From Bdellovibrionales bacterium (GTDB taxonomy: Bacteria > Bdellovibrionota > Bdellovibrionia > Bdellovibrionales > UBA1609), in the NCBI GenBank assembly GCA_019695175.1, contig JAIBAM010000020.1, positions 1 to 47,577 on the forward strand: DNA of 47,577 nucleotides, given 5' to 3'. The notes beneath the pieces were generated by a model. The model was not told the DNA's origin. It ran no database searches and saw only the letters and a list, made by a program, of their open reading frames with translations. Both the position numbers and the translations under genes were made by a program. Of this stretch, positions 33,669-42,594 are shown in pieces. How positions within the stretch are numbered: the first letter of the stretch is position 1; each line of letters opens with the position of its first letter.

Positions 33669-34535
33669 TTATAAGCTGGCTTTAAGAGTTGAGCCCAAAT
33701 CTGCAGGACTTCGAGCTATGTGACACCCAGCAGATTTAAGAGCTTCAAACTTTGCTTCGGCCGTACCTTTTCCACCACTAATAATCGCCCCAGCATGCCC
33801 CATTCTTTTACCTTTTGGAGCTGTAGCTCCAGCAATAAAACTGGTGACAGGTTTTTTAAATTCTCGACGAATGTATTCGGCAGCATCCTCTTCAGCAGTT
33901 CCACCAATTTCTCCGATCATAATGACTGCATCCGTATTTTCGTCTTTGTTGAAAAGTTCTAATACATCAATAAAGTTTGTTCCATTCACAGGGTCTCCAC
34001 CAATTCCCACGCAAGTACTTTGACCTAACCCTACGCGACTGAGTTGCCATACCGCTTCATAGGTGAGAGTCCCAGAACGGGACAAAACCCCAATGCGACC
34101 TGGCTTATGAATGTGACCCGGCATAATTCCAATTTTACATTGTCCAGGGGTGATGACTCCTGGACAATTGGGTCCGATCAGCCTAGTTTTTCTCCCCTGC
34201 ATAAACCTTTTTACTTTAACCATATCTAAAACAGGAATTCCTTCAGTAATACAAACCACCAAATCCAGTTCGGCATCGACAGCTTCCATAATGGCATCCG
34301 CAGCAAAAGGTGGCGGAACATATATTACTGACGCATTGGCTTTTGTGTGTTTTACAGCTTCTTCGACCGTATCAAAAACTGGAAGCCCTATATGTTTGGA
34401 GCCGCCCTTTCCAGGTGTGACTCCTCCCACCATTTTTGTACCGTAAGCTAAAGCTTGTTCAGAATGGAAAGTGCCTTGAGCACCCGTAAAACCCTGACAA
34501 ATGACACGAGTGGATTGATTGACTAAAATGGCCAT
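33669..34535 (-). CDS. sucD: Succinyl-CoA ligase, alpha subunit
   Basis: 288 residues, the family length. CoA-binding Rossmann start ([18 protein letters not shown]), [14 protein letters not shown], and the phospho-histidine active-site region [20 protein letters not shown] (His in GHAG). With SucC it converts succinyl-CoA to succinate, making ATP/GTP in the TCA cycle. AGGAG before the ATG. Third gene of mdh-sucC-sucD; 39 bp after sucC. Confidence 0.95.
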
Positions 34536-34574
34536 TTTAAATTAACTCCTCTTAAATATTTGCTTAACTGAAAA

Positions 34575-35744
34575 CTACTTAGATGATTGAACTGCGGAAA
34601 CAATACTTTTTGCTGCTAGGGTTAAATCATCAGCCGGAGTGATATTAAGCCCACTTTCTAATAATAATTTTTTTCCCAATTCCACATTGGTCCCTTGCAG
34701 ACGAACCACGAGTGGCACTTTTAAACCCAACTCTTTCGTAGCAGCGATGACACCTTCTGCAATAATATCGCATTTCATAATTCCACCAAAAATATTTACT
34801 AAAATACCTTTGACGTTAGGATCTTGTAAAATAAGCTTAAAGGCTGCAGTGACTTTTTCTTTGTTAGCGCCTCCACCCACATCTAGAAAATTCGCGGGAG
34901 ATCCACCGTGAAGTTTGATAATATCCATAGTAGCCATGGCCAATCCGGCCCCATTAACTAAACAACCTATATTTCCTTCCAATTTTATGAACGCCAAATC
35001 ATATTTGCTGGCTTGAATTTCAACCGGATCCTCTTCAGTAAAGTCCCTTAATTCCACGATTTGTGTCTGTCGATAAAGAGAGTTGCTATCAAAATTCAAT
35101 TTAGCATCTAAAGCTAAAACTTCTCCCTCCACAGTTTCAACTAGAGGATTTATTTCTGCAATGGAGCAATCTGTTTGTTCATAGGCTTTCGCTAACCCTA
35201 GAAAAACTTTTACAGCATTTTGGGCTGCTTTATCTTTCAAACCGATAGCATAGGCCAATTGTCGTGCTTGAAAAGGCATCAAACCCACCACAGGATCTAG
35301 GACCACACGGTGAATCTTTTCTGGAGAGTGTGCCGCCACCTCCTCAATATCAACTCCACCTTCAGAACTAGCCATTAAAATAAGTCTTCCCACGGTCCGA
35401 TCCAATAACATGGCGACATAATACTCTTTTTTTATTTGGCAACCTTGCTCAATAAGTACTTTATGAACCTGTTTGCCTTCAGGCCCAGTTTGGTGAGTGA
35501 CCAAATTCATTCCTAGAATTTTTTCGGCAAGAGTTTTTACTTCTTCCAAGGATTTTGCAATCTTAACCCCACCGCCCTTACCACGACCACCGGCATGTAT
35601 TTGCGCTTTAACCACCCATATTTTACCACCAATCTCCTGGGCCGCATTGATGGCTTCGTCCGCATGGGAAATTACTTTTCCTTTAAGGGTTGGAACTGAA
35701 AATTTTTTTAAAATCTCTTTAGATTGATACTCATGAATATTCAT
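34575..35744 (-). CDS. sucC: Succinyl-CoA ligase, beta subunit
   Basis: 389 residues, the family length. N-terminal [18 protein letters not shown]-grasp part with [20 protein letters not shown], Mg-binding EINPLVET, and the C-terminal [16 protein letters not shown] and [13 protein letters not shown] segments. It carries the nucleotide site of the enzyme and pairs with SucD. Lies between mdh and sucD. Confidence 0.95.
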
Positions 35745-35771
35745 CGTTCACCTAAGCATGGAAGAAGGTTA

Positions 35772-36716
35772 TTAAAGGGATAATTTTTTTAAGGCTTGAA
35801 CAAGTTCTTTAACTGCACCTATGGAGTGTTGAAGTCCAGCTTTTTCAACTTCATTTAATTCCACTTCATAAACTTTTTCCATACCTCTTCCGCCCAGTTT
35901 GCAAAGAACACCAATGAAGAGATCTTTAACACCATACTCTCCATCAAGTAGAGCCGCACAAGGTAAAATCCGTTTTTGATCGCGAAGAATAGATTCGGCC
36001 ATTTGTACGGCGCTGGCAGCAGGTGCATAGTAAGCTGACCCTGTTTTAAGTAAATTTACAATCTCAGCACCACCATTTCTGGTTCTTTGCACCAAGCTTT
36101 CAATTTTTTCTTTACTAAGAATTTCAGTCAAAGGGACTCCTCCCACTGAACAGTGTCTGGGCATAGGAACCATGGTGTCACCATGACCACCAAGAACAAA
36201 GGCTTGGACATCACGGATACTGACTTGGCATTCTTCTGCGATAAATGATCTAAAGCGAGCGCTATCTAACACACCCGCCATACCGATCACTCTTTCCCTT
36301 GGAAAATTCAGAACTTCCTTAGCAACAAAGGCCATCGCATCCAGTGGATTACTAACAATAATAGCTACGGCCTGAGGGGAGTGTTCTCTTACCCCAGTAC
36401 ACACTTCGCGCATAATCTTTGCGTTTGTAGCCAGCAAATCGTCACGACTCATTCCCGGTTTTCTGGGAAGTCCCGCTGTAATAATCACCACATCGGATCC
36501 TGCAGTATCTTTATAATTTGAAGTTCCCATCACTCGGGCATCAAAATTTTCCACAGGAGATGCTTCATAAAGATCCAGAGCTTTACCTTTAGCGACACCC
36601 TCATTTATGTCGACGAGAACAACGTCACCCAGTTCTTTTGCTGCTGCCCAGTGAGCGCAGGTCGAGCCAACAAATCCAGCCCCAATAACAGATATTTTTT
36701 TTCTTTTGTGTTCCAT
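35772..36716 (-). CDS. mdh: Malate dehydrogenase, LDH-like type
   Basis: 314 residues. NAD motif [18 protein letters not shown], then [15 protein letters not shown], the loop [17 protein letters not shown] with the substrate Arg residues ([10 protein letters not shown]), SNPLDAM, and the catalytic [10 protein letters not shown] (His). This is the type III, LDH-like malate dehydrogenase, not the type of E. coli. It oxidises malate to oxaloacetate. First gene of mdh-sucC-sucD, so three TCA steps are in one operon. Its upstream region of 160 bp is shared with the diverging Mla-like operon. Confidence 0.93.
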
Positions 36717-36876: not shown

Positions 36877-37641
36877 ATGATTTTGGGGAAAGTTGAACTA
36901 CAAAATGTGAAAGTTTCTTTTAATGGAGAAACTTTGCTTAAAGAATTTAATCTAAAAATTCGACCTCAAGAACGAGTCATTCTTATTGGTCCCAGCGGTC
37001 AGGGTAAAACCACGATACTAAAAGTCATTGGAGGTTTATTTAAACCCACTTCGGGCCAGGTACTTATAGATGATCAAGACCTTTATCAACTGAGAGAAAA
37101 GGATCGACAACTTATTTCGCGAAAAATGGGAATGCTTTTTCAAAAAAATGCACTCTTTGATTCTCTGACAGTGGCAGATAATATTGCTTTTCCTTTACGA
37201 GAAACAACCTCATTCAGTGAAGAGGAAATCCAAAATAAAGTAAATTCTTTTTTAACCGCCGTGGGCTTGGATCATGTCCCCCACCTTCATCCTGACAAAA
37301 TCAGCGGAGGCATGCAAAAACGTCTAGGCATCGCTCGGGCCCTCGCCCTGGATCCAAAGATCATTTTATATGATGACCCCACCGCAGGACTAGACCCAGT
37401 GACAAGTCGAAAAATCATCGATTTACTTTTATCCTTTCAAAATAAAATTTCCTCCACACTTATAGCCGTAACAAATGATATGGCACGGGCCTATCAATTG
37501 GCGCAAAGAATTTTATTTGTCAATGAAACGGAAGTGTTAGAGACCGGCTCTCCTGAACAAACAAGACAGCATGAGAATGAAAAGGTTCATCAATTCGTTC
37601 GAGGTAAAAATGGCACCACCCAAAAAGATTTACACTCATGA
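36877..37641 (+). CDS. Mla-like ABC transporter ATPase (MlaF type)
   Basis: 254 residues. Walker A GPSGQGKTT, signature ISGGMQKRLGIARALALDP (the GGMQKR form of the MlaF family), Walker B IILYDDPTAGLDP, and a H-loop region where NDMARAY takes the place of the usual SHD, so the switch histidine is replaced. It would drive phospholipid transport at the inner membrane. First of four Mla-like genes; the stop overlaps the next start (ATGA at 37638). Confidence 0.85.
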   Translation: MILGKVELQNVKVSFNGETLLKEFNLKIRPQERVILIGPSGQGKTTILKVIGGLFKPTSGQVLIDDQDLYQLREKDRQLISRKMGMLFQKNALFDSLTVADNIAFPLRETTSFSEEEIQNKVNSFLTAVGLDHVPHLHPDKISGGMQKRLGIARALALDPKIILYDDPTAGLDPVTSRKIIDLLLSFQNKISSTLIAVTNDMARAYQLAQRILFVNETEVLETGSPEQTRQHENEKVHQFVRGKNGTTQKDLHS

Positions 37642-39350
37642 TTGAATTTAAAAACTTAACTAAAAAATTTGAAAGCCGAACTGTTCTCAATTCTATTTCT
37701 TTACAAATTCCCCAGGGGAAAATTTTATTTATTCTAGGCACTTCGGGCACAGGAAAATCGGTGCTTTTAAAAAATTTAGTAGGCCTTTATCGACCGACCA
37801 GTGGTGAAATTTGGATTGATGGCGAAGAAGTCACGCACCTCTCAGAAGAACAGTATTATCCCATAAGAAGAAAGTGCGGCATGGTATTTCAATACCCAGC
37901 ACTTTTTGATTCTCTTAATGTGTATGATAATGTAGCCTTTGGAATAAAAAAGAATTTTCCCGAATGGGATCAACAGCAAATTTCTGCCAGAGTAAAACAA
38001 AGTCTAGATTTAGTTCATGTTACAGGCATGGAAAAGAAAAAACCCAGTGAGTTGTCCTATGGATTACAAAAAAGGGTGAGCTTGGCTAGAACCCTTGCCT
38101 TGGAACCTTCTTTACTTCTTTTTGACGAACCCACCACGGGCTTAGATCCCATCATCACTCGATCTATAAATGAATTGATCTATGACTTATCCCGAACTCT
38201 TCAAATCACCTCAGTGGTGGTCAGTCACGATATGCACTGTGCTTTGGAAATTGCAGATCATATTATTTTCTTAGATAAGGGTTCGATCATTGCTCAAGGG
38301 AGTCCTCAAGAGATTATTAGTGATCCCCATCCCTTGGTTCAGGACTTTTTACTAGAAGCTTTAAGTGCTCAAGAAAATGATGAATTGGAAAAAAAATTAA
38401 ATATTCCCCATTCCTACACTCCAATGACATTGCCTCCAAAGAAGGTCACAGAACCTCTTGCAAACTCCAAGCAGAATTTGCTCTCTTCAAGTCACTCCAC
38501 ACTTCCCCTTGCAAACCCTACAGTTCAGACTAAATATAATATAAAAAATATTTTATTTATTTATATAAATATTTTATTTAAACCAATCTTATCTGTTCTC
38601 GATTTTTCAGGAAATCTAGTAAGTTTTTTAAAAGAGATGCTAGGTGCTGTAAGAAGGGGTTCTTGGTCTTTAAGTGATATCTGTGAACAATTGTGGTTAG
38701 TGATCATCCAAAGTTTTTCTACTACAGCCATGGCAGGATTTTTTGTGGGAGCCATTATGGCCGTACAATTTACTTTGCAAGTGAAAGAGTTTGGAGCTCT
38801 TGGTTATTTAGGAGGTCTGACAACATCAGCCACTTTACGTGAGGTGGGACCGCTTTTGATTGCATTTATGCTCAGTGGAAAAGTGGGAGCTTACACCTCT
38901 GCAGAATTAGGTACTATGAAAGTCACAGAGCAGATTGATGCCTTGAGATGCTTAGGTGCCAATCCACTTACAGAAATTGTTTTCCCCCGTTTTATTGCCA
39001 TTATTATTGCGAGTTTTTTTCTTTTAGGAGTTGGTTTATTAATGTCCATTGGAGGGGGATTAATCTTAGGTCATTTTTTCGCTGGTATAAACCCTGAAGA
39101 GTATCTCCGACATATTCCTACAATCGTTTCTTGGCCATCGGTAGTGAGTGGATTATTTAAATGTTTTGTGTCGGCAGTGATGTTGGCCTCCATCTGCACC
39201 TTTATGGGTTATTCAACAAAGGGTGGAGCCAAAGGTGTGGGTCAGTCCGTTGTCAAAACTGCTGTGCTGACTATGGTTGGAATCATTATGGCTGATTGGG
39301 CAACTAGCTTTTTATCGGATGTGATTCTTCTGCTTTATTTAGGGGAATGA
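37638..39350 (+). CDS. Fused MlaF-type ATPase and MlaE-type permease
   Basis: 570 residues. Residues 1-245 are an ABC ATPase: Walker A GTSGTGKSV, signature LSYGLQKRVSLARTLALEP (degenerate: usual is GG-M-Q-K-R), Walker B LLFDEPTTGLDP and switch VVSHDMHCAL. A Ser/Pro/Leu linker of about 80 residues leads to an MlaE-type permease (about 330-570) with SATLREVGPLLIAFM, TSAELGTMKVTEQIDALRCLG and GGAKGVGQSVVKTAV. Nucleotide-binding and membrane subunits are usually separate genes, so this fusion is unusual. With the separate ATPase and the next permease it could form a heterodimeric pump. Confidence 0.88.
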   Translation: MIEFKNLTKKFESRTVLNSISLQIPQGKILFILGTSGTGKSVLLKNLVGLYRPTSGEIWIDGEEVTHLSEEQYYPIRRKCGMVFQYPALFDSLNVYDNVAFGIKKNFPEWDQQQISARVKQSLDLVHVTGMEKKKPSELSYGLQKRVSLARTLALEPSLLLFDEPTTGLDPIITRSINELIYDLSRTLQITSVVVSHDMHCALEIADHIIFLDKGSIIAQGSPQEIISDPHPLVQDFLLEALSAQENDELEKKLNIPHSYTPMTLPPKKVTEPLANSKQNLLSSSHSTLPLANPTVQTKYNIKNILFIYINILFKPILSVLDFSGNLVSFLKEMLGAVRRGSWSLSDICEQLWLVIIQSFSTTAMAGFFVGAIMAVQFTLQVKEFGALGYLGGLTTSATLREVGPLLIAFMLSGKVGAYTSAELGTMKVTEQIDALRCLGANPLTEIVFPRFIAIIIASFFLLGVGLLMSIGGGLILGHFFAGINPEEYLRHIPTIVSWPSVVSGLFKCFVSAVMLASICTFMGYSTKGGAKGVGQSVVKTAVLTMVGIIMADWATSFLSDVILLLYLGE

Positions 39351-39357
39351 GGGAAAA

Positions 39358-40131
39358 ATGGTCAGTACCGTTGGAACACAAATTATTTATCGAATAAAGA
39401 TGGTTCAGGATTTTTTTTATTTACTAGGTCAAACTCTGTGGCGAACCTTTTCGGCACCCTATCGTCCTCGCGAAATTATAAAACAAATGGAGTTTGTCGT
39501 ATGGCAGAGTCTTCCTGTTGTTTTATTTTCAGTTAGCTCTGCAGCAGTTGTTACTATCATTGAGTCCTCTTTTCATATGCGCTTGATTATTCAAAATGAC
39601 AGTTTAGTTCCAGGTTTTGCAGCCATGCTCATTTTACGGGAGTTGGGTGCCGTGGTCTCAGCTCTTTTGGTGACCTCACGTGTGGGGGCTGGATTTGCAG
39701 CTGAAATTGCCACTATGAAAATTACAGAACAAATTGATGCCTTAAAAATGTTGGGAATAGATCCTGTTCGTTTTTTAGTGGTACCAAAATTTATCGCTTG
39801 TACTGTTGGAGGATTTTTAATTTCCATTTTGGCAAACATGGCCTGTCTTTATTGCGCTATTCTTGTCGGAAAGTTGAAATTAGGCCATTCCTTCGAAGGT
39901 TTTATTTCTTCTATGGGAAATTTTATTCAGTTCAGAGATCTTATTTTTGCAGCAATTAAGGGATTTTGTTTTGGCGCCGTAATACCGTTAGTGAGTTGTT
40001 TTTATGGATTTAGATGTCGTTCAGGTGCCGAAGGTGTTGGTCTTGCCACGACAAACGCCGTGGTAACCTCTTCAGTGGTTATTATAATAATGGACTTTAG
40101 CCTCTCCTGGTTTTTTTCCAGATATTACTGA
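39358..40131 (+). CDS. MlaE-type ABC permease
   Basis: 257 residues of the MlaE fold: LILRELGAVVSALLVTSRVG, the conserved TMKITEQIDALKMLG loop, and RSGAEGVGLATTNAVV near the end. It is a permease lacking an ATPase, the partner that the fused gene would need. ATGAGGGAAAA before the ATG at 39358, 7 bp after the fused gene. Confidence 0.87.
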   Translation: MVSTVGTQIIYRIKMVQDFFYLLGQTLWRTFSAPYRPREIIKQMEFVVWQSLPVVLFSVSSAAVVTIIESSFHMRLIIQNDSLVPGFAAMLILRELGAVVSALLVTSRVGAGFAAEIATMKITEQIDALKMLGIDPVRFLVVPKFIACTVGGFLISILANMACLYCAILVGKLKLGHSFEGFISSMGNFIQFRDLIFAAIKGFCFGAVIPLVSCFYGFRCRSGAEGVGLATTNAVVTSSVVIIIMDFSLSWFFSRYY

Positions 40132-40181
40132 CACAAATCTATGTGATAGGATAGAAAAGCCATTTCAAATAAAGGAGCTTT

Positions 40182-40958
40182 ATGAAACCTGAAGCAAAAG
40201 TGGGGTTGCTATTTTTGCTGGCTTTCGCAGTGACGATTGCCTTTGCCTATTCGCTAGGTGCATTGAATCCATTTTCAAGCCGAAAAAGTTTGGACATCGC
40301 CTACAATTTTGCAGGTGGAATTGATATTGGATCACCGGTAAGAGTCATGGGAATTAAGGTTGGAAAAGTAACTGCCATTGAGTTTGACCCAAACTTGAAA
40401 ATGCCCGACGGTGAGGAAGTTAAGCTTCGCATTAGTGTTTCCATAGATAAAAAAGCTTGGCCAACACTTCGTACTGACAGTCGTTACTTTATTAATTTAG
40501 CAGGAGTGATTGGAGAAAAATTTTTAGAAATCACACCGGGATCCGGTGGCGCCCAACCATTACAACCTAACTCCTTAGTTCGCGGTGAAGATCCACCAAG
40601 AATTGATCAATTGATCTCACAAAGTTATGGTTTGGCCGGTAAAATCATCAATTTGATTGAGAAAAATGAAGGCTCTTTAGAGAACATTATCGAAACCGTC
40701 AGTCGATTGGTGGTGAATATGGACAAGGCCCTAAGGCAGTTAGATAAGACCACTAAAAATCATGAGATCAATCTGATGTTAAAAAATGTTCAGGATTTAA
40801 CCGGAGACCTAGCTTATTTTTCACGGCAGATGCGTTCACCAGAAGGTCAAAAAACCATTTCTTTGCTCAATCAGTTGCTCCACCGTCTAGAACCTTTAGA
40901 TGCGAAAGCCTTAAAGAAATTCCTTCAACAAGAAGGGATTCGGGCAAAACTCTTTTAA
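40182..40958 (+). CDS. MCE/MlaD domain protein
   Basis: 258 residues. One N-terminal transmembrane anchor (about residues 7-25), then a single MCE domain (about 35-120) with GIDIGSPVRVMGIKVGKVTA, and a helical tail. MCE proteins form hexameric rings that carry lipids between membranes; this one is anchored in the inner membrane. The ATG follows AAAGGAG. Fourth gene of the operon; no MlaC or MlaA gene follows. Confidence 0.9.
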   Translation: MKPEAKVGLLFLLAFAVTIAFAYSLGALNPFSSRKSLDIAYNFAGGIDIGSPVRVMGIKVGKVTAIEFDPNLKMPDGEEVKLRISVSIDKKAWPTLRTDSRYFINLAGVIGEKFLEITPGSGGAQPLQPNSLVRGEDPPRIDQLISQSYGLAGKIINLIEKNEGSLENIIETVSRLVVNMDKALRQLDKTTKNHEINLMLKNVQDLTGDLAYFSRQMRSPEGQKTISLLNQLLHRLEPLDAKALKKFLQQEGIRAKLF

Positions 40959-41142
40959 GCTTAACCTGAGTTCAGCTATTTTTTAAGAAAAGATTAAGAA
41001 TCTGTTCGGAAATACCTTCTCAGTGAAGGAAAATATTCAGATTTGAAAATGAATTCTTGGGGGGCAGTTGTGATCTCTAGCTTCATATACTGGAAATTGG
41101 ATTTTTGCTAAAGACCCCCAGGAAGTTGAGGGCCTTTAACTT

Positions 41143-41160
41143 GACTCGACTTTTCGAGTC
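41143..41160. repeat. Perfect 7-bp hairpin GACTCGA-CTTT-TCGAGTC
   Basis: Seven-base stem and four-base loop between mce and the Lys-rich peptide gene. With the smaller palindrome ATGGTT-TG-AACCAT at 41167-41180 (followed on the minus strand by T5) it may end transcription of the minus-strand peptide gene, which stops at 41195. Confidence 0.45.
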
Positions 41161-41194
41161 GGAAAAATGGTTTGAACCATCTTTCCTTTAGGAA

Positions 41195-41293
41195 CTACTT
41201 CTTTTTTTTCTTAGCAACTTTCTTTTTAGTTGCAGTTTTTTTGGTTGCCGCTTTTTTAGTTGCAGTTTTTTTGGTTGCTGCTTTCTTTGCCAT
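41195..41293 (-). CDS. 32-residue Lys/Ala/Thr-rich histone-tail-like protein
   Basis: ATG 41293 to TAG 41195, preceded by a very good AAGGAGGATAAA ribosome site. The peptide is built from AATKKTATKK repeated twice, then a KKK-rich end (KVAKKKKK): 16 of 32 residues are Lys. This resembles the tails of histone H1-like proteins (Hc1, AlgP-type) and should be highly basic and unstructured, binding DNA, RNA or ribosomes. The codons of the two repeats are nearly the same. Possible terminator stems lie just downstream. A short gene, but the ribosome site and composition make it credible. Confidence 0.65.
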   Translation of the reverse strand: MAKKAATKKTATKKAATKKTATKKKVAKKKKK

Positions 41294-41452
41294 TTTATCC
41301 TCCTTGGATATTGTTGGTAATTGCAATTTGAGTGTTTAACTTCATCACAATTTAATTATGTTCAATGCTTAGTGTATCGACACAACTTCTGTCGTCAATA
41401 AAAAAATACTTTGTCATTCATTTTGCATCTCTACTTTTTTTTGGAGTGAAGA

Positions 41453-42175
41453 TTGTTTTGGGTGTTTTTAATAAATTTATTGTCCGTTTTTTGGATACTC
41501 CATCGGATGATGAGAACAAATACACAATATTCATTTTGCTGGATATTTGTGTCTCATTTCATTCCGATTATGGCCATTTTTCTTAGTAGGTATTCTGTTC
41601 TTTTTTTTATATTTCTAGTTCATGCACCCATTTGGATTTGGTATTTTCTTATCTTCATCCAGAAAATAAAAAAAAGAAACCTCTGCGAGTCACACTTAAG
41701 AAGTTTTATTGATCATATTATCTATAACATGAAGTCCGGACGGTCCTTTAGAAAAAGTCTCACGGACGCCTCTCAAGAATTGCCAGAAGCTTGGTTGAAA
41801 AATAGAGTTCAAATCTGGCTGAGTGAATTGAATATGGCCCCTACTCAAGTGAAAGGCGAACCCGTTTGGCAGGAAATTCAGTTGGAATTTCTGGCCATCG
41901 ACCATCAACCCCATCAAGCCATACAAAGGTTACAAAGTTGGAGAAGTCGTCTGAAATTGACGGCCGATTTTCGACGTCGATCAGGACAGGTGCTAGCTCA
42001 AGTAAGATTGCAGGCCACTTTGGTCGGTGTCCTCTATGTTGCATTACTCCTTTTTAGTCTTATGAGAGGGGTTTGGCGTACTCACGCAATTTTAGTGGGA
42101 GTTTCAATGATTTTATTTCTTATGGGAGTCTTTTTAATTTTCAAAATGGGGAAAAAAATAAAATGGAGTTTCTAG
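41453..42175 (+). CDS. TadB-like type II secretion F domain protein
   Basis: About 240 residues with four hydrophobic segments, two at each end (about residues 1-16 and 42-70, then 185-230), flanking a cytoplasmic helical domain with FIDHIIYNMKSGRSFRKSL (the L-x-x-G-x-S-x-x-x-A-L type signature of T2SSF). TadB is an inner-membrane platform subunit of Tad pilus machinery. The start is a TTG with GGAGTGAAGA before it; internal ATGs exist. It overlaps the TadC-like gene by 13 bp. Confidence 0.65.
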   Translation: MFWVFLINLLSVFWILHRMMRTNTQYSFCWIFVSHFIPIMAIFLSRYSVLFFIFLVHAPIWIWYFLIFIQKIKKRNLCESHLRSFIDHIIYNMKSGRSFRKSLTDASQELPEAWLKNRVQIWLSELNMAPTQVKGEPVWQEIQLEFLAIDHQPHQAIQRLQSWRSRLKLTADFRRRSGQVLAQVRLQATLVGVLYVALLLFSLMRGVWRTHAILVGVSMILFLMGVFLIFKMGKKIKWSF

Positions 42176-42594
42176 CACAACCCTATTTATGTCTGTTGGA
42201 GGTCCGTCATCGTATGGAATGTGGCCACTCTACTTCAGAGGCCTTGAGAAATTATTTTAGTAAAGTCAACGATCCCTTTGCTGTGAAGCTACTTCAGTGG
42301 CAGTGGAGTTATTTGCAAGGGAGACAAGGGGATGAAAAAAAAATATTTAACTCTCCCCTCCAGATATTATTGGTAGAAACCATTAAGCGCGGATTAAGTG
42401 GGGAGCCTATCCTCACACGACTTGCAGAAGTGGAAGAGGAAATGCGCTTGGAAATGATCGATGCCATGGAAAAACATTTACAAAAATTGCCTGTCTTATC
42501 TTTATTACCTCTGACAGGATTTATTTTTCCAAGCTTTATGCTCTTGCTCATTGGCCCCCTCATGTCGGATTTATTTAACAGTTTTAAATCATGA
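42163..42594 (+). CDS. TadC-like type II secretion F domain protein
   Basis: About 143 residues from ATG 42163, short for TadC because only the second half of the F domain seems to be present: LEVRHRMECGHSTSEALRNY (platform signature), EEEMRLEMIDAMEKHLQKLP, VLSLLPLTGFIFPSF and a C-terminal membrane helix. The start overlaps TadB by 13 bp; the frame open to 42073 is an artefact of that overlap. With the TadB-like protein it should form the inner-membrane platform of the Tad system at 1-4 kb. Confidence 0.65.
   Translation: MEFLAQPYLCLLEVRHRMECGHSTSEALRNYFSKVNDPFAVKLLQWQWSYLQGRQGDEKKIFNSPLQILLVETIKRGLSGEPILTRLAEVEEEMRLEMIDAMEKHLQKLPVLSLLPLTGFIFPSFMLLLIGPLMSDLFNSFKS

Follow-up and report, generated by a model that had tools for sequence, protein, structure and literature searches.

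In the MlaFEDB transporter of E. coli, A. baumannii and P. aeruginosa, an MlaD-type MCE protein is combined with MlaB, an MlaF-type ATPase and an MlaE-type permease, the last two each encoded by one gene and each forming a homodimer (PMC7367683). Mycobacterial Mce1 combines a heterodimeric MlaE-family permease, YrbE1A/B, with a homodimeric ATPase, MceG, and six MCE proteins (PMC9882608). MlaEFD of Veillonella parvula has neither MlaA nor MlaC; it contains a single ATPase and a single permease, modelled 2:2:6 with a longer, helical MCE protein, MlaD, of 419 aa (PMC10665443).

When two ABC subunits dimerize head to tail, every ATP is enclosed by the Walker A, Walker B and switch elements of one of them and by the signature of its partner (PMC12038006). 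The closest mechanistic analogue of the system described here is the heterodimeric exporter with a degenerate site, for example MsRv1273c/72c, whose impaired half has Asp in place of the catalytic Glu and Gln in place of the switch His (PMC12038006). Together with TM287/288, TmrAB and BmrCD, it belongs to the exporters with Glu replaced by Asp and His lost in one ATPase domain (NBD), an altered signature in the opposite NBD, and one remaining consensus site. MRP1, CFTR and TAP are further members of this group, and, to our knowledge, nearly all work on degenerate ATP sites has concerned exporters of the CFTR, MRP and TAP kind.

The locus described here, from a member of the Bdellovibrionales, likely encodes an obligately heterodimeric ABC lipid transporter of the MCE family with one degenerate ATP site, for which we infer the NBD pairing, the behavior of the two sites, the stoichiometry and the lipid.

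An MCE-type transporter operon with two unlike ATPases

The window, that is, the whole 47,577-nucleotide stretch of DNA that was analyzed, is one contig of a 2.6-Mb genome that is 97% complete. It contains four successive plus-strand genes, whose reading frames and domains agree with a preliminary description of the locus. The first (36877..37641) encodes NBD-A, an MlaF-like ATPase of 254 aa (Pfam ABC_tran, 6e-35). The second (37638..39350) encodes a 570-aa chain in which a second ATPase, NBD-B, is fused to permease A (ABC_tran at residues 17-167, MlaE at 349-557), with approximate domain limits of 1-245 for the NBD, 247-312 for the linker and 313-570 for the MlaE domain. Permease B, of 257 aa (39358..40131), also belongs to the MlaE family, with PDB matches to MlaE and YrbE1A/B; PF02405 is found in both permeases (7e-57 in permease A, 8e-60 in permease B). 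The fourth gene (40182..40958) encodes an MCE protein of 258 aa (MlaD, PF02470, 2e-15). Since the stop codon of NBD-A is overlapped by the start of the fused gene, and permease B and the MCE gene follow after only 7 and 50 bases, respectively, the four genes form a tight operon.

For both NBDs, MlaF proteins are among the best PDB matches, and both match the NCBIfam MlaF model, although below its cut-off. The two halves are unlike, with 36% identity between NBD-A and NBD-B and 29% between permeases A and B; a TEQIDAL segment is kept in both permeases. With MlaE permeases, an MCE protein and MlaF-type ATPases all present, the locus encodes an MCE-type (MlaFE-like, type VIII) ABC transporter.

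The earlier label "Mla-like" is too specific for the system. Neither MlaA (PF04333) nor MlaC (PF05494) was found in the genome, in searches whose controls were positive. Assignment to the Mla pathway of E. coli is consequently not supported, and the locus does not by itself imply a function in outer-membrane asymmetry. In place of the homodimeric MlaF and MlaE of that pathway there are two unlike ATPases and permeases, always present together and presumably paired, and there is no MlaB in the operon. The locus is also distinct from the mycobacterial type, with its homodimeric MceG and six different MCE proteins, since each operon has a single MCE gene and a pair of unlike ATPases. A heterodimeric MlaE-family permease, known for Mce1 and proposed here, is common to both. 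Known Mla systems had been described as homodimeric; this holds for MlaFEDB (PMC7367683), but an MCE transporter with a heterodimeric permease on a homodimeric ATPase is known in YrbE1A/B (PMC9882608). With the Veillonella system the locus shares the absence of MlaA and MlaC and a longer helical MCE protein, albeit one of 258 aa. From the degenerate-site exporters it differs in its unrelated permease fold and its MCE protein, which they lack, and they have an NBD fused to each TMD.

All three altered positions fall on one ATP site of a proposed heterodimer

The NBDs were aligned with E. coli MlaF, using a reference sequence in which the positions of K47 and E170 agree with the published ones (PMC7367683). 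NBD-A has an intact Walker A and Q-loop and an intact signature, ISGGMQKR (Ser143-Gly144-Gly145, 37303..37311 on the plus strand), and it retains the D-loop. Its Walker B motif, on the other hand, reads YDDP, with Asp167 (37375..37377, plus strand) where MlaF has its catalytic Glu, E170, and its switch loop reads TNDM, with Asn200 (37474..37476, plus strand) in place of the His (MlaF H203). NBD-B shows the reverse: Glu164 (38127..38129, plus strand) and His197 of the SHDM switch (38226..38228, plus strand) are intact, and the signature, LSYGLQKR, has Tyr141 (38058..38060, plus strand) in place of its first Gly. The residues quoted previously (NDMARA without His, SHDM, LSYGLQKR and the normal signature of the free ATPase) are thus correct, as were the His and signature changes in the list of lesions, which had missed the Asp for Glu in YDDP.

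The catalytic Glu and the switch His are lost in NBD-A only, and the signature is altered in NBD-B only. Because ATP sites span both subunits, all three lesions fall on one composite A:B site, leaving the other fully consensus. With the consensus residues split in this way, a complete site can arise only in an A:B pair, since A:A or B:B dimers would each contain two defective sites. That both ATPases are nevertheless conserved favors the heterodimer. The proposed heterodimer, in which one ATP site is degenerate and the other consensus, is thereby supported by alignment, and also by the conservation and controls described below; two canonical sites, which would have argued against it, were not what the alignment gave.

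Conservation among the Bdellovibrionota

The five genes for NBD-A, NBD-B, permease A, permease B and the MCE protein were read in roughly 100 Bdellovibrionota loci, and residues were counted, after deduplication, in the first two of the locus sets. The position of the Walker B Glu is Asp in 69/72 NBD-A orthologs, the switch His is lost in 71/72 (63 Asn, 8 Ser) and the signature SGG is present in all 72. The NBD-B signature has Tyr in 71 orthologs and Phe in 7 (n = 78), with the catalytic Glu kept in 78/78 and the switch His in all 77 that were readable at that position. The asymmetry is not due to chance, since more than 70 orthologous operons show the same fixed pattern. By comparison, single-ATPase MCE systems of the same phylum were canonical in 8/8 cases (LSGGM, DEP, [ST]HD). 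The genome under study has three other MCE systems, two of which have canonical ATPase motifs. The third (L073:994-3506), left aside from the controls, has a single ATPase with strongly altered motifs: FDSGG in the Q-loop region, an SGSQ signature, DDP and no switch His.

In more distant families, most NBD-A sequences still have the Glu, whereas Asn or Ser already replaces the His and the signature of NBD-B already contains Tyr or Phe. The existence of distant NBD-A sequences with Glu but without His suggests that the switch His and the signature changed first and the catalytic Glu later.

Named carriers of the operon include Bdellovibrionales and Bdellovibrionota MAGs and the complete chromosome of Bdellovibrio bacteriovorus strain kdesi. 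A scan of 84,980 species returned loci of the Bdellovibrionota type, one short match in Okeania and one "Streptomyces" MAG; it rested on permease-A patterns, and the range may thus be wider. The MAG (CALQIT020000001.1), titled Streptomyces griseus, contains a typical Bdellovibrionota operon and is probably a mislabelled bin. Relatives found in a plasmid search were all below 60% identity, and the best of them adjoins a single ordinary permease gene. Several genomes (loci L169-L175 and L177) contain a second NBD-A-like ATPase gene of about 0.75 kb, with DD in Walker B, which has no permease, NBD-B or MCE gene adjoining it. In L171, the gene that follows this copy looks like a cation-transporting P-type ATPase.

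Do the two ATPases form one motor?

In two whole-genome searches covering the genome's own class, an NBD-A ortholog (E < 1e-90) was present in 70/71 genomes with NBD-B, versus 1/28 without it (Fisher p about 6e-22, indicative only, since related genomes are not independent). Co-occurrence owes something, in part, to genetic linkage, and NBD-A is retained even when it lies up to 3.5 kb away or, in one genome (G040), on another contig. This supports the membership of NBD-A and NBD-B in one predicted physical dimer. In the trees, NBD-B and each permease type form clades of their own and the NBD-A sequences group together, with some low supports; monophyly of NBD-A is not pressed, as its node has a support of 0.065, possibly lowered by re-rooting. 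The separate clades indicate that the split into unlike halves predates the sampled diversity.

Could the operon instead encode two homodimeric transporters that share one MCE protein, one built from NBD-A and permease B and the other from NBD-B and permease A? NBD-B and permease A do form one chain in the window, and in some genomes NBD-A lies apart from the remaining genes. However, fusion of one half is just as expected for a heterodimer, co-occurrence of the two NBDs is almost complete with one MCE gene for both, and each homodimer would have two defective sites in spite of the conservation of both ATPases, which makes this arrangement very improbable. Alternatively, NBD-A might not be half of a motor but bind ATP in a regulatory or structural role, with NBD-B acting alone or with another partner, such as a second NBD-B. 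Indeed, neither of the residues acting on the attacking water is present in NBD-A, and some genomes have extra NBD-A-like genes without partner genes; but NBD-A has kept its Walker A, Q-loop, D-loop and invariant signature, which is what completing the NBD-B site needs, and the signature of NBD-B itself is altered in every copy. We consider this improbable as well.

Acceptance of the A:B dimer still allows that both of its sites are active, with Asp, Asn and LSYG tolerated and the heterodimer asymmetric without being degenerate. Glu to Asp is a conservative change, and most of the distant NBD-A relatives have Glu. Against this, three changes converge on one site, the E170Q variant of E. coli MlaF does not function (PMC7367683), and equivalent changes mark the impaired sites of known heterodimers (PMC12038006), so that two active sites appear unlikely. 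Finally, the lesions and the fusion might be products of pseudogenization, misassembly or sequencing errors. The fusion is unique among the loci examined, and a sixth gene found in many relatives is missing from the genome. As a source of the residue changes, this is refuted by a pattern that is fixed across families with intact reading frames; the linker of the fused gene is in frame, both other frames contain stops, and in one relative (G033) the two genes already share a frame. A decaying or misassembled operon is thus extremely improbable.

The fusion of NBD-B and permease A

The reported ATPase-permease fusion is real in the assembly but not typical. Its linker, of about 65 residues, is in frame, several stops interrupt both other frames, and there is no in-frame start codon at residues 282-333, where relatives start permease A. 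In every relative examined, on the other hand, NBD-B and permease A are encoded by separate genes, and with its occurrence limited to this genome among the loci read, the fusion was rejected as the defining feature of the system. In G033, the NBD-B and permease A genes are in one frame with a single stop codon between them, which may show the route by which the fusion arose. Other apparent fusions (a 600-aa NBD-A frame in L180 and permease frames of 378-483 aa) are frames that are open upstream, with no recognized added domain. When the fusion was aligned jointly with NBD-B and permease orthologs encoded by separate genes, the NBD rows fell on the permease half, and this alignment was left out of folding.

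Proposed mechanism and evolution

How would the preferred heterodimer operate? One copy each of NBD-A, NBD-B, permease A and permease B would form a core beneath a ring of the single MCE protein, with the two NBDs dimerized head to tail. The Walker A, Walker B and switch elements of NBD-B and the signature of NBD-A would make up the complete site, at which ATP is hydrolyzed. The opposite site, made from the Walker A, Asp and Asn of NBD-A and the LSYG of NBD-B, would hold ATP with poor or no hydrolysis and clamp the dimer in a partly closed state, a role suggested by analogy to exporters that have a different fold. About one ATP would be used per cycle, the two unlike permease halves would move asymmetrically, and lipid, the presumed substrate by analogy with the transporter family, would pass between a cavity in the inner membrane and the MCE tunnel. 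In E. coli, MlaF with the E170Q change fails to complement (PMC7367683). The NBD-A site, however, may be weakened rather than dead, since Asp can sustain slow hydrolysis and most of the distant NBD-A sequences keep Glu.

Searches of the open-licence literature turned up no account of an Mla or MCE transporter with two ATPases; as far as that literature shows, the parts were already known and the arrangement is new. It is probably the first MCE/MlaFE-type lipid transporter with an obligate heterodimeric motor and one degenerate site: a system that predates the diversification of the Bdellovibrionota, lost the His and gained the aromatic signature first and lost the Glu later, in its own class, and that in many lineages has its own small outer-membrane barrel in place of MlaA/MlaC. 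If true, a degenerate site would have evolved separately on an unrelated permease fold, with the intermediates (His first, Glu later) in living lineages, and two unrelated machines could be compared to learn what a crippled site is for. It would also offer an approach to lipid transport in Bdellovibrio-type bacteria, of which at least one genome is without MlaA and MlaC, and point to a different possible outer-membrane partner.

The MCE protein, the downstream gene and the neighborhood

The MCE protein has an N-terminal membrane helix, one MCE domain and a helical C-terminal part. In its model, the membrane helix and the MCE domain are confident and the helical tail less so, with fold matches to MlaD and Mce1 proteins. 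Its C-terminus, KKFLQQEGIRAKLF, an FLQxEGIxAKLF-like tail, is among its most conserved stretches in alignments across families and could perhaps be a docking tail.

In L137 (7367-8017) and about 58 other loci, a sixth gene of about 200 aa lies directly 3' of the MCE gene. Its product has a signal peptide and an invariant C-terminal Phe and is modelled as a beta-barrel (mean pLDDT 88.7; closest folds OprF, OmpA and OmpX), making it, on this model, a candidate outer-membrane partner of the transporter. The gene is absent from the window (40958-41453) and from this genome. It is also missing from some other operon-bearing genomes, and in a few it is present although the operon is not; as each occurs without the other, it is not an obligate part.

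Upstream of the operon is a divergent mdh-sucC-sucD cluster (window 33669-36716), shared by about 50 loci, and downstream a TadB/TadC-like-looking pair of conserved membrane-protein genes (window 41453-42594), found in 40-46 loci. With flanks common to 40-50 loci, the neighborhood of the operon appears old and stable. In the gap 3' of the MCE gene, at about 41190-41310 of the window on the minus strand, there is a lysine/alanine-rich short repeat (AAKKATKKAA-like) that resembles a small basic DNA-binding protein.
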